From Flavobacterium frigidarium DSM 17623 (lineage in GTDB: Bacteria > Bacteroidota > Bacteroidia > Flavobacteriales > Flavobacteriaceae), in the NCBI RefSeq assembly GCF_000425505.1, contig NZ_AUDO01000011.1, forward strand, positions 1 through 64,000: 64,000 nt of DNA, given 5' to 3'. The notes under the pieces were generated by a model. That model made no database searches. It was not told the DNA's origin and saw only the letters and a list, made by a program, of their open reading frames with translations. Both the position numbers and the translations under genes were made by a program. Below, one piece after another: positions 46,493-48,868 of this stretch; positions within the stretch are counted from its first letter, which is position 1; every line of letters starts with the position of its first letter.

Positions 46493-47197
46493 TTAATAAG
46501 ATAGCATTTCAAATAGTAAACCAGTTCCGAGCGCTATCCCAAAACTGAGTAATGTTCCTATCAAAACATATTCAGTAAGTCTTCGATCTTTGGCCTCCTT
46601 TAAATCTCCAAAGCGAAAAATGGATTTTGCCGCCAGCAAGAATCCAATCGCTTCAAAATGCCCTGTTATAATAAAAGTGAATACAAACAATCTTTCTAAT
46701 ATTCCTATGTAGTTTCCAGCATTAGAGAGCGAACTCTCCTTTTTGTCCTTGTTTTCTGGAGTCCAAATCGAAATTGCATTTTTAATTAAAATGGATGTAG
46801 GTTTTGTTAAGAAAACTAGTGCCGTAATTAAAAGTAAGTTGGTATTTATAAACTCAAATAAGTTTATAGAAGTATTTGTATATACTCTAAAAACAACTGC
46901 TATAGTAAATAAATGCGCTAGTTGATCCAACCAGAACCAAAGCCGTTTTGTTTTACTTTTTTGAAATTTAAGTTTGATAAAATCTATGATTCCATGTGCT
47001 GTAGCTAGGCTAACTCCAAAGAGGATAAAATTTAATTTTCCAACAATCACGCAGGCTAAAAGACCATGCAGAGCAATGTGATAATACAAGTATTTGCTTT
47101 TGTGTTTTCTCGTTTCTTTATCAACAACCCATGATGTAGGTTGCAATAAAAAATCACCCAGAATGTGCGCCAAAAACAATTGTACTAGTAATATCAT
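46493..47197 (-). CDS. DUF3307 membrane protein
   Basis: A 234-residue integral membrane protein with about six hydrophobic segments. The opening LFLAHILGDFLLQPTSWV and the following YLYYHIALHGLLACVI carry the HxxGDFxLQ and HxxxH residues characteristic of DUF3307. Its start overlaps the stop of SatD by four bases (ATGA), so the two proteins are translationally coupled and probably function together. The family's biochemical function is unknown; the conserved His/Asp residues in membrane segments suggest metal or lipid-phosphate chemistry. Confidence 0.87.
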   Translation of the reverse strand: MILLVQLFLAHILGDFLLQPTSWVVDKETRKHKSKYLYYHIALHGLLACVIVGKLNFILFGVSLATAHGIIDFIKLKFQKSKTKRLWFWLDQLAHLFTIAVVFRVYTNTSINLFEFINTNLLLITALVFLTKPTSILIKNAISIWTPENKDKKESSLSNAGNYIGILERLFVFTFIITGHFEAIGFLLAAKSIFRFGDLKEAKDRRLTEYVLIGTLLSFGIALGTGLLFEMLSY

Positions 47198-47811
47198 ACG
47201 TTATGTAGTTTTATTTTTTTTCGAAAATAATTATCTAAAGCTAAAACGAGGTCAAATTTAGCACGGCTTTTTCGTCTACTTACAGCGGCTTGATTAATCT
47301 CTAATAAGCGTCCTATTTCTTCCTGAGATAACTCTGGGTTTTTCAAAGATATAAAGGTAAATTCGGCCGATTGAACTAACCAGAAGTCCATAAAACTCAG
47401 TGAAAGCCGAAGCATTAAATTAAGTTCTTCATTAAGGGAATCGTCTACTGTAGCGATAGCCAAATTAACTTTTTGTTTTTTCAATGTTTCAAATAGTGCT
47501 CCAGAACGTACAAAAGCACTACCGTTACTCTCAGATATAGATTGAGCAGTGTAATTTTTATCGCCCACGCCAATGGCCATTCGAGCATCTAGATTTATAC
47601 TTCTTAAGTAAGATTTGATTAATAGCGCATAATGTAATGCCAAGCTAGGGTCAATTATCTCTATTTGAAATTCGTCTCCACGATAGATTTCCCATACTTG
47701 TGGGCTAGCTCCTACAGTATTAAATATAGCCTTTAGTCCTATTATCCAGTCTGTGGAATCTTGTTTACGTGAATTGATGATGTCTCCAGTGATGATGCTT
47801 GTCATATCCAA
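47194..47811 (-). CDS. SatD family protein with C-terminal helix-turn-helix
   Basis: A 205-residue protein. The beginning SIITGDIINSRKQDSTDWI and EIYRGDEFQIEI match SatD proteins. The last ~50 residues (ELSQEEIGRLLEINQAAVSRRKSRA) form a helix-turn-helix of sigma-region-4/LuxR style. This suggests a DNA-binding regulator with a nucleotide-cyclase-like sensor part. It overlaps DUF3307. Upstream, on its promoter side, lies an array of four TTAC..GTAA palindromes (47843-47926), which could be its own binding sites. Confidence 0.85.
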   Translation of the reverse strand: MDMTSIITGDIINSRKQDSTDWIIGLKAIFNTVGASPQVWEIYRGDEFQIEIIDPSLALHYALLIKSYLRSINLDARMAIGVGDKNYTAQSISESNGSAFVRSGALFETLKKQKVNLAIATVDDSLNEELNLMLRLSLSFMDFWLVQSAEFTFISLKNPELSQEEIGRLLEINQAAVSRRKSRAKFDLVLALDNYFRKKIKLHNV

Positions 47812-47842
47812 ATGTAATTAAAATTTTTATCGAAATCATAGT

Positions 47843-47926
47843 ATTTACAATTGTAAATATATTACATATTTATGTAATATATGTTATTATTACGGTATTG
47901 TGTAATATTGCGAATTATTACGTAAA
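47843..47926. promoter_or_regulatory. Array of four TTAC..GTAA palindromes (candidate operators)
   Basis: Four related inverted repeats lie in the divergent gap. Site 1 is ATTTACAATTGTAAAT (47843-47858, perfect). Site 2 is ATATTACATA and TATGTAATAT (47859-47880). Site 3 is ATTAC and GTAAT with eight bases between (47889-47906). Site 4 is ATTACGTAAA (47917-47926). All share TTAC/GTAA half sites. They are placed between SatD/DUF3307 and HMG-CoA lyase and may control either. AT-rich DNA produces some such motifs by chance, but four within 84 bases is unusual. Confidence 0.5.
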
Positions 47927-47989
47927 ATAGAGATTCGTTAAAAATATTAAAATTTAAATAGAGAAATTTAGTAATGTTAATTGTTTTTC

Positions 47990-47997
47990 TATCTTTG
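47990..47997 (+). promoter_or_regulatory. -7 element of HMG-CoA lyase promoter
   Basis: TATCTTTG, only seven bases before the ATG at 48005, so the leader would be very short or absent. Confidence 0.45.
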
Positions 47998-48004
47998 AAG
48001 CTAT

Positions 48005-48868
48005 ATGAAGCAAGTAAAAATAATTGAATGTCCTCGTGATGCTATGCAAGGTATCAAGCCCTTTATCCCAACAGATAAAAAGGTTGCCTACTTGCAAGCG
48101 CTTTTGCGTGTGGGTTTTGATTCTTTAGACTTTGGTAGTTTTGTTTCTCCAAAAGCAATACCGCAAATGGTCGATACTGCAACTGTTTTATCACAATTAG
48201 ACCTGTCTCAAACAACAAGTAAACTTCTAGCAATTATTGCCAATACGCGTGGAGCTGAGATGGCTTCACAACATCCCGAAATTCAATATTTAGGTTTTCC
48301 TTTTTCTATTTCTGAAAATTTCCAAATGCGAAATACGCACAAAACAATTGCCGAATCTCTAGTGACACTTACTGAAATTTTAGAAATTGCTGATCAGTCA
48401 AAAAAAGAAGTAGTAGCTTATTTATCTATGGGTTTTGGAAATCCTTATGGAGACCCTTGGAATGTTGATATAGTAGGGGAGTGGACAGAAAAGATGTCTA
48501 CTATGGGAGTGAAAATCTTATCGCTGTCAGATACAGTGGGAAGCTCAACTCCTGATGTTATTCACTATTTGTATTCCAATTTGATTCCGAAATATCCAGA
48601 CATGGAATTTGGCGCTCATTTACACACGACCACTGATAAATGGTTCGAAAAAGTGGATGCTGCCTACACTGGAGGTTGTACCCGTTTTGATGGTGCGATT
48701 CAAGGTTTTGGTGGTTGCCCAATGGCAAAGGATGACTTGACTGGGAACATGCCCACAGAGAAATTACTATCCTATTTCACCGCAAATAAAGTACAAACCA
48801 ACTTGAATCCGCTAAGCTTTGAGAGCGCATATAACGAAGCTTCTAAGTTATTTGGAGAATACCACTAG
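48005..48868 (+). CDS. Hydroxymethylglutaryl-CoA lyase
   Basis: Cleaves HMG-CoA to acetyl-CoA and acetoacetate, the last step of leucine breakdown. A 287-residue HMGL-type TIM barrel. IIECPRDAMQGIKPFIPT carries the metal/catalytic Arg-Asp pair, FDSLDFGSFVSPKAIPQM follows, then SLSDTVGSSTP. The metal-binding HLHTT and the C-terminal Cys loop FGGCPMAKDDLTGN are present; the Cys-containing loop is the family hallmark. There is no operon partner downstream. Confidence 0.92.
   Translation: MKQVKIIECPRDAMQGIKPFIPTDKKVAYLQALLRVGFDSLDFGSFVSPKAIPQMVDTATVLSQLDLSQTTSKLLAIIANTRGAEMASQHPEIQYLGFPFSISENFQMRNTHKTIAESLVTLTEILEIADQSKKEVVAYLSMGFGNPYGDPWNVDIVGEWTEKMSTMGVKILSLSDTVGSSTPDVIHYLYSNLIPKYPDMEFGAHLHTTTDKWFEKVDAAYTGGCTRFDGAIQGFGGCPMAKDDLTGNMPTEKLLSYFTANKVQTNLNPLSFESAYNEASKLFGEYH

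Follow-up and report, generated by a model that had tools for sequence, protein, structure and literature searches.

Between satD and a divergently transcribed gene for an HMG-CoA lyase-like protein, four palindromes with TTAC and GTAA half-sites lie close together, and this arrangement raises the question of which protein reads them and which of the genes they control. The locus was analysed as part of a stretch of 64,000 nucleotides, referred to below as the window. An earlier note on this DNA had suggested an autoregulatory operator array for the SatD/DUF3307 pair, an idea that now appears to be supported by the linkage of the array to satD and by the covariation of its letters with a helix of SatD. 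The reading we favour, at a probability of roughly 0.82, takes the array as the autoregulatory operator of the satD-DUF3307 operon, bound cooperatively by SatD, repressing and gated by a nucleotide. The genes, palindromes and half-sites are:

46493-47197, minus strand: DUF3307 gene (PF11750, E 1.7e-26), second gene of the likely operon
47194-47805, minus strand: satD, an open reading frame for a predicted N-terminal nucleotidyl-cyclase/GGDEF-like domain (residues 1 to about 120-140) and then a C-terminal helix-turn-helix (HTH); likely start ATG at 47805, in-frame TTG at 47811
47245-47337, minus strand: predicted HTH in SatD (residues 157-187, numbered from the ATG at 47805); codon of R177 at 47275-47277
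47843-47858, no strand: perfect 16-bp palindrome ATTTACAATTGTAAAT, out of register with the array
47845-47856: TTAC..GTAA site 1, TTACAATTGTAA, inside the perfect 16-bp palindrome
47862-47877: TTAC..GTAA site 2, TTACATATTTATGTAA
47890-47905: TTAC..GTAA site 3, TTACGGTATTGTGTAA
47918-47925: TTAC..GTAA site 4, TTACGTAA
47860-47921, no strand: putative SatD operator array, five alternating half-sites 14 bp apart, in the same register ahead of satD in relatives
47860-47865 (TATTAC), 47874-47879 (GTAATA), 47888-47893 (TATTAC), 47902-47907 (GTAATA) and 47916-47921 (TATTAC): the five half-sites
47860-47879 and 47888-47907: two full 20-bp units, 28 bp apart
48005-48868, plus strand: HMG-CoA lyase-like gene (PF00682, E 3.5e-19), divergent from satD

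The four inverted repeats that the earlier note had listed within 84 bp were all present, as were the perfect 16-bp palindrome and the 8-bp spacers claimed for two of the sites, and the cluster is not a product of chance. In the shuffle count that the note had proposed as a check, three or more TTACn0-8GTAA sites within 84 bp never appeared when the 193-bp intergenic region (82% A+T) was dinucleotide-shuffled 20,000 times, and 53 shuffles held two. As a description of the binding units the list stood in part: two of the sites are real units and the fourth contributes its TTAC as the fifth half-site, but the perfect palindrome does not share the register. It was found in none of seven aligned relatives, the nearest of which (L002) reads TATTTACATCGATAC at the corresponding position, and is probably incidental, outside the conserved array. 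The half-site array itself matched 30 of 30 letters, compared with a maximum of 24 in 2,000 dinucleotide-preserving shuffles and with 19 letters at the best non-overlapping place in the window (one phase scanned). The whole window contained 29 TTACn0-10GTAA sites (17.6 ± 4.0 expected), and TTACN8GTAA occurred 154 times in the own genome against 136 for the backward control, which is little excess.

The check for the motif ahead of other satD genes had a positive outcome, both in near relatives and, in the form of arrays with other letters, in the wider phylum. Among 80 named satD loci (79 listed under Flavobacterium or Flavobacteriaceae, one a MAG listed under Sphingobacterium), 76 had at least two TTAC..GTAA sites in the 28-bp register within 260 bp ahead of satD. 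One of the four exceptions is a contig that ends too early; the other three (L065, L075 and L080) keep the array, intact or nearly so, farther upstream, its nearest unit starting about 230-245 bp ahead of satD with about 190 bp of extra DNA in between. This extra DNA contains internal inverted repeats (GGAGTCGAAG / CTTCGACTC-like), which are clearest in L065.

Of the 81 loci L001-L081, 79 showed synteny between the lyase gene and satD and the remaining two were cut by contig ends; since this synteny holds throughout, these loci cannot tell which gene owns the array. Among the 34 loci L082-L115, some of which come from one genome, the DUF3307 gene adjoined satD in 33 and the lyase gene lay beside satD in seven, all of them from close relatives; a lyase gene adjoining satD was not found in more distant genomes. 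The exact double unit was searched in 149 genomes of the window's family and occurred at five places in four genomes, all directly ahead of satD (backward control pattern: one place). At two of the five, the 1.5 kb read contained no lyase gene, and SatD there is 33-42% identical. Of 18 lyase loci of the same genus, the one with a divergent satD scored 36, whereas the other 17 scored at most 26 and lacked the array; one of the 17 is flanked by a distant satD on the opposite side, and at least five of the 17 genomes have a satD match. At one lyase locus without a SatD match (L216), the upstream region carries one TTACN8GTAA and a weak remnant with 28-bp pitch (score 26), possibly the scar of a lost satD. 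Exact TATTACN8GTAATA occurred four times in the own genome, two of them in the array; with up to one mismatch there were 30 occurrences against 33 in the control and, therefore, no sign of a wider regulon. The two other exact copies lie at G000:C6:167186-167205 and G000:C12:4981-5000. As far as the compared genomes indicate, the site thus sits in the promoter region of its presumed regulator and follows that gene from genome to genome.

Array geometry was analysed in 204 of 215 satD upstream regions, identical last 200 bp being counted once and regions with less than 150 bp upstream being left out; 100 of the satD places had been hand-chosen from overlapping sets of 46, 102 and 136 SatD-matching genomes, with one genus of many near-identical matches thinned. 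A scan for three-unit palindromes, in which inner spacing (4-12) and linker (4-15) were left free and the pitch could thus range from 20 to 39 bp, was compared with 204 coding-region controls and with 612 two-base-block shuffles, which, unlike the shuffles of the intergenic region, do not keep exact dinucleotide counts. The maxima of both controls were exceeded by 150 of the 204 regions (148 with fixed inner spacing), including 75 of the 126 from loci L084 and up; in the other 54 a three-unit array was not detected. Although pitches of 20-39 bp were allowed, all 150 had a pitch of 28 bp (123 regions) or 29 bp (27 regions). The letters, in contrast, changed with the lineage: half-sites included TATTAC, TATAAG, TATTAG, TATCGG, TATCGT and TATCTG and, further, TATTCC, TATATG, TATAGT, ATCAAC, ATTCGA and ATTGGC. 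A pitch of 28 bp with an inner spacing of 8 places half-sites evenly every 14 bp. At a pitch of 29 bp it is usually the linker that takes up the additional base (8+9 in 19 of 27). This suggests that each dimer occupies one 20-bp palindrome and that the 28-29 bp pitch is set by contact between adjacent dimers. One gammaproteobacterial array was found on a conjugative plasmid of Vibrio lentus, where satD-DUF3307 is preceded by TTAGCC-N6-GGCTAA three times at 28 bp; this SatD, aligned by eye, has K at the code position described below, as does L156 (half-site ATTAGC). In four of five satD genes from plasmid records the array was missing.

For the comparison of half-sites with SatD residues, 58 representatives sharing <70% identity over residues 1-150 were taken from the 147 arrays that scored at least 28.5. 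The SatD helix commonly has the form Q-S/A-x-V-S-X-R-x-K-R, X being residue 177. In mutual information with the inner triplet of the half-site, residue 177 ranked first of 186 columns (z 12.5; next column 7.0), followed by 184, 173 and 174 (z about 7), column 103 (6.6) and 171 (6.1); column 103 lies outside the HTH, as does column 27, and their z of 6.0-6.6 points to a residual phylogenetic signal in the code. Residue 172, which is nearly always Q, was the top column for motif positions 1 and 2 (z 11.5 and 12.4). All five representatives with R177 had TATTAC, of 20 with E, D or G at 177 19 had C at motif position 4 (against 2 of 38 with any other residue), and Q177 went with a half-site ending in AG in 12 of 15. 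K177 was less specific, with TATTCC in three of ten representatives plus seven other half-sites, i.e. eight different ones in ten.

Relatedness was controlled for by comparing path-disjoint pairs from an N-terminal-domain tree, 14 of the 63 same-triplet pairs being in the matching identity range. Residue 177 differed in 14 of 20 different-triplet pairs but in only 3 of 14 same-triplet pairs (Fisher p 0.013), and residue 174 in 13 of 20 versus 1 of 14 (Fisher p 0.0011); the top three columns of this test were 174, 149, which precedes the HTH, and 177. The code, first spotted by eye and then scored, gave the uniquely best class for 25 of 30 loci with a unit of at least 11/12, loci that had no strong array and were outside the fitted set, though not blind (one tie, four wrong); label shuffles reached a mean of 10.5 and a maximum of 19 in 5,000. 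After 70% clustering, 17 of 22 were right, with one tie and four wrong. Without the score cut-off, 27 of 54 loci outside the set were uniquely right, 12 were ties and 15 wrong, and four more had a residue without a class. The letters of the half-site thus covary with the predicted recognition helix, and this makes SatD itself the probable binding protein. Since the spacing of 28-29 bases is constant while the letters change with the helix that would read the DNA, the array is very probably SatD's own operator.

The C-terminal HTH claimed for SatD in the earlier note was recovered as a prediction at residues 157-187, where a Sigma70_r4-like Pfam match of 17.7 bits stays under the curated cut-off of 24.1. 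The window protein had no match to the Pfam family SatD (PF16264) at E ≤0.1, whereas 21 of 27 aligned members matched at E ≤0.01 (best 4.7e-11); an NCBIfam search with SatD gave only matches far under the cut-off, and a PDB sequence search with a SatD profile gave weak HTH matches (best E 0.013) and a GGDEF match at E 0.47. An AlphaFold model of SatD, built with 30 sequences, had a mean pLDDT of 80 and a pTM of 0.79, with 53-74, i.e. low confidence, in the HTH blocks. VIA-align matched its N-terminal domain to GTP cyclohydrolase III (2qv6; Z 12.1, rmsd 2.8, 107 aligned), to the GGDEF domain of DosC (4zvg; Z 11.2, rmsd 3.0, 115 aligned) and also to Cas10 and class III cyclases; Foldseek matches to the cyclase/GGDEF fold were modest (best E 8.9e-4, TM about 0.4). 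By fold, the modelled domain belongs to the nucleotidyl-cyclase/GGDEF/Cas10-palm superfamily. Two acidic positions, D8 (ITGDI) and D44 (YRGDEF), are conserved in at least 90% of 27 diverse SatD proteins; by analogy we take them to be metal ligands on strand 1 and the hairpin. The SatD homologue of L113, which is divergent in sequence, has lost both, the flank read there contained no DUF3307 gene, and no array was detectable. DUF3307 is probably a membrane protein. Its AlphaFold model is all-helical (pLDDT 72) and was too weak to serve as a query for structure searches.

Candidate promoter elements were found on both sides of the array; TAnnTTTG is presumably the -7 consensus of Bacteroidota.

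47809-47816, minus strand: TACATTTG, TAnnTTTG-type candidate -7 box for satD, directly ahead of the ATG
47981-47983, plus strand: TTG, candidate -33 element of the HMG-CoA lyase gene
47990-47997, plus strand: TATCTTTG, possible -7 box for the HMG-CoA lyase gene, recurring in most of seven aligned relatives

In 76 of 80 near relatives a TAnnTTTG lay no more than 22 bp from the start of satD. Of 79 near relatives, 63 carried the -7-type box TATATTTG inside the unit closest to the promoter; it was absent from all 208 other units. Fourteen of the 58 representatives have a TAnnTTTG that starts 4 or 2 bp short of where the last half-site ends, compared with about 0.4 expected from the background rate. 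A -7 box within or abutting the last unit favours repression by occlusion. In the window none of the array units contains a -7 box, and the array ends 43 bp upstream of the sole TAnnTTTG in the last 220 bp before satD; occlusion is therefore less direct here.

These data bear on several other explanations of the array. An A+T content of 82% and a 16-bp palindrome that is not conserved might suggest a repeat element, an RNA structure or mere chance in A+T-rich sequence as the source of the palindromes, but such an origin is extremely improbable: the shuffle counts and the fixed-pitch scan refute chance, and a pitch that stays fixed while the letters change in covariation with an HTH speaks against this explanation as a whole. 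Neither is the array likely to control the divergent HMG-CoA lyase gene and with it leucine degradation, with or without SatD. It does lie between the two genes, which stay together in nearly all of L001-L081; however, the 17 lyase loci that have no divergent satD lack it, and satD retains it even with no lyase gene found alongside; the effect on the lyase gene suggested in the earlier note is, therefore, unsupported. We also doubt that a different, unlinked regulator uses the array as its operator and has satD-DUF3307 as a target. Binding by SatD is known here by inference from sequence, which leaves room for such a protein, but it is residue 177 in the HTH of SatD that best predicts the half-site across lineages, and one dedicated locus per genome, as found with exact double units, is typical of local autoregulation.

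It is conceivable, though not what we expect, that SatD binds the array and activates satD-DUF3307, or does both depending on its ligand state, with the upstream units recruiting RNA polymerase. The 43 bp between the array and the start-proximal -7 box in the window would suit activation, as would the three loci whose nearest unit lies about 230-245 bp upstream of satD. In many lineages, however, the -7 box is in or abuts the last unit, the usual place for a repressor.

We thus favour a SatD-bound, repressing operator, for which the following mechanism is proposed. SatD dimers would bind 20-bp units of the form TATxyz-N8-z'y'x'ATA via the C-terminal HTH, residue 177 (with 171, 173 and 174) reading the inner letters xyz and residue 172 going with the outer letters. 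Since the units repeat at a fixed pitch of 28-29 bp, neighbouring dimers probably touch, and a short cooperative filament would shut the satD promoter. SatD is probably released by a nucleotide that its nucleotidyl-cyclase-like domain either senses or makes; given the cyclase-like fold of the model and the conservation of D8 and D44, a nucleotide ligand is a reasonable guess. Binding of the array by SatD we infer from the covariation, and cooperativity, repression and ligand gating are held less firmly.

Local autoregulation with a residue-to-base code is known already from the LacI and GntR families. Regulators of the LacI family adjoin their own site, and a small number of recognition residues predict a few nucleotides, with convergence (PMC2978694). 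SatD would share the local autoregulation and the code; unlike this family, it is not LacI-like and has units repeated at a 28-29 bp pitch and a nucleotidyl-cyclase-like domain. For GntR subfamilies, correlated positions in regulator and motif, divergons and an Asp-C pair among the contacts are described (PMC4494728). Protein and DNA positions are likewise correlated in SatD, where E/D goes with C, but HTH and sensor differ, and the abstract and outline of that study mention no long in-register array for GntR. The PucR-type regulators, e.g. MabR, combine a GGDEF-like domain with an HTH-type effector domain (PMC11617747). To that extent they resemble SatD, in which a GGDEF-like fold would also be joined to a DNA-binding domain. 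The GGDEF-like domain of PucR-type regulators is regarded as degenerate, whereas in SatD both acidic residues are retained and the partner is DUF3307. In Panoptes, OptS (mCpol) occurs with the membrane effector OptE (PMC12657218). As in satD-DUF3307, two genes place a protein of the Cas10-palm/GGDEF-like type beside a membrane protein; unlike SatD, OptS has no HTH mentioned in the passages considered, and DUF3307 does not belong to the 2TM-beta family.

SatD is named after a streptococcal acid-tolerance operon. In S. pyogenes, satD is reported to be accessory yet seemingly essential, and among streptococci it is said to have been studied only in S. mutans (PMC11323703). The literature found on the SatD family and DUF3307, in its accessible portions, does not describe SatD as a DNA-binding regulator, and the Pfam entry for DUF3307 lists its function as unknown. 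From the present analysis the SatD family gains a testable role as autoregulator, a putative binding site and a code at the level of residues, and its modelled domain fold suggests a nucleotide ligand. Further, a fixed pitch with changing letters across large evolutionary distances provides a clean natural series for the study of co-change between regulator and operator. More speculatively, satD-DUF3307 may be a two-gene module of nucleotide signalling, in which a DNA-bound regulator with a cyclase fold forms a polymer along the array of its own promoter. A nucleotide that is made or lost under stress or phage attack would then have two effects, release of the promoter and control of the membrane partner DUF3307; if so, the fast turnover of operator letters together with the recognition helix would insulate the copies of different lineages from each other.

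In PADLOC-DB, four proteins (SatD and DUF3307 of the window and two other SatD) had no match to any model of known anti-phage defence systems. On a plasmid of Sphingomonas insulae (L239, NZ_CP048421.1), satD-DUF3307 is located between a gene for a TIR-domain protein and a set of genes annotated as cyclase, E2-associated protein and Pycsar effector. A reading as part of a defence island was set aside except within the speculative module above, since it rests on this one plasmid and the annotated neighbours on Vibrio and Salinivibrio plasmids do not show it. A tblastn search of phage records with DUF3307 gave no match, and in PHROGs the SatD of the window had none, two other SatD proteins having only weak matches to transcription regulators (E 0.0015 and 0.026). 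DUF3307 matched the phage membrane-protein family phrog_2470 in PHROGs with an E of 2.8e-12.
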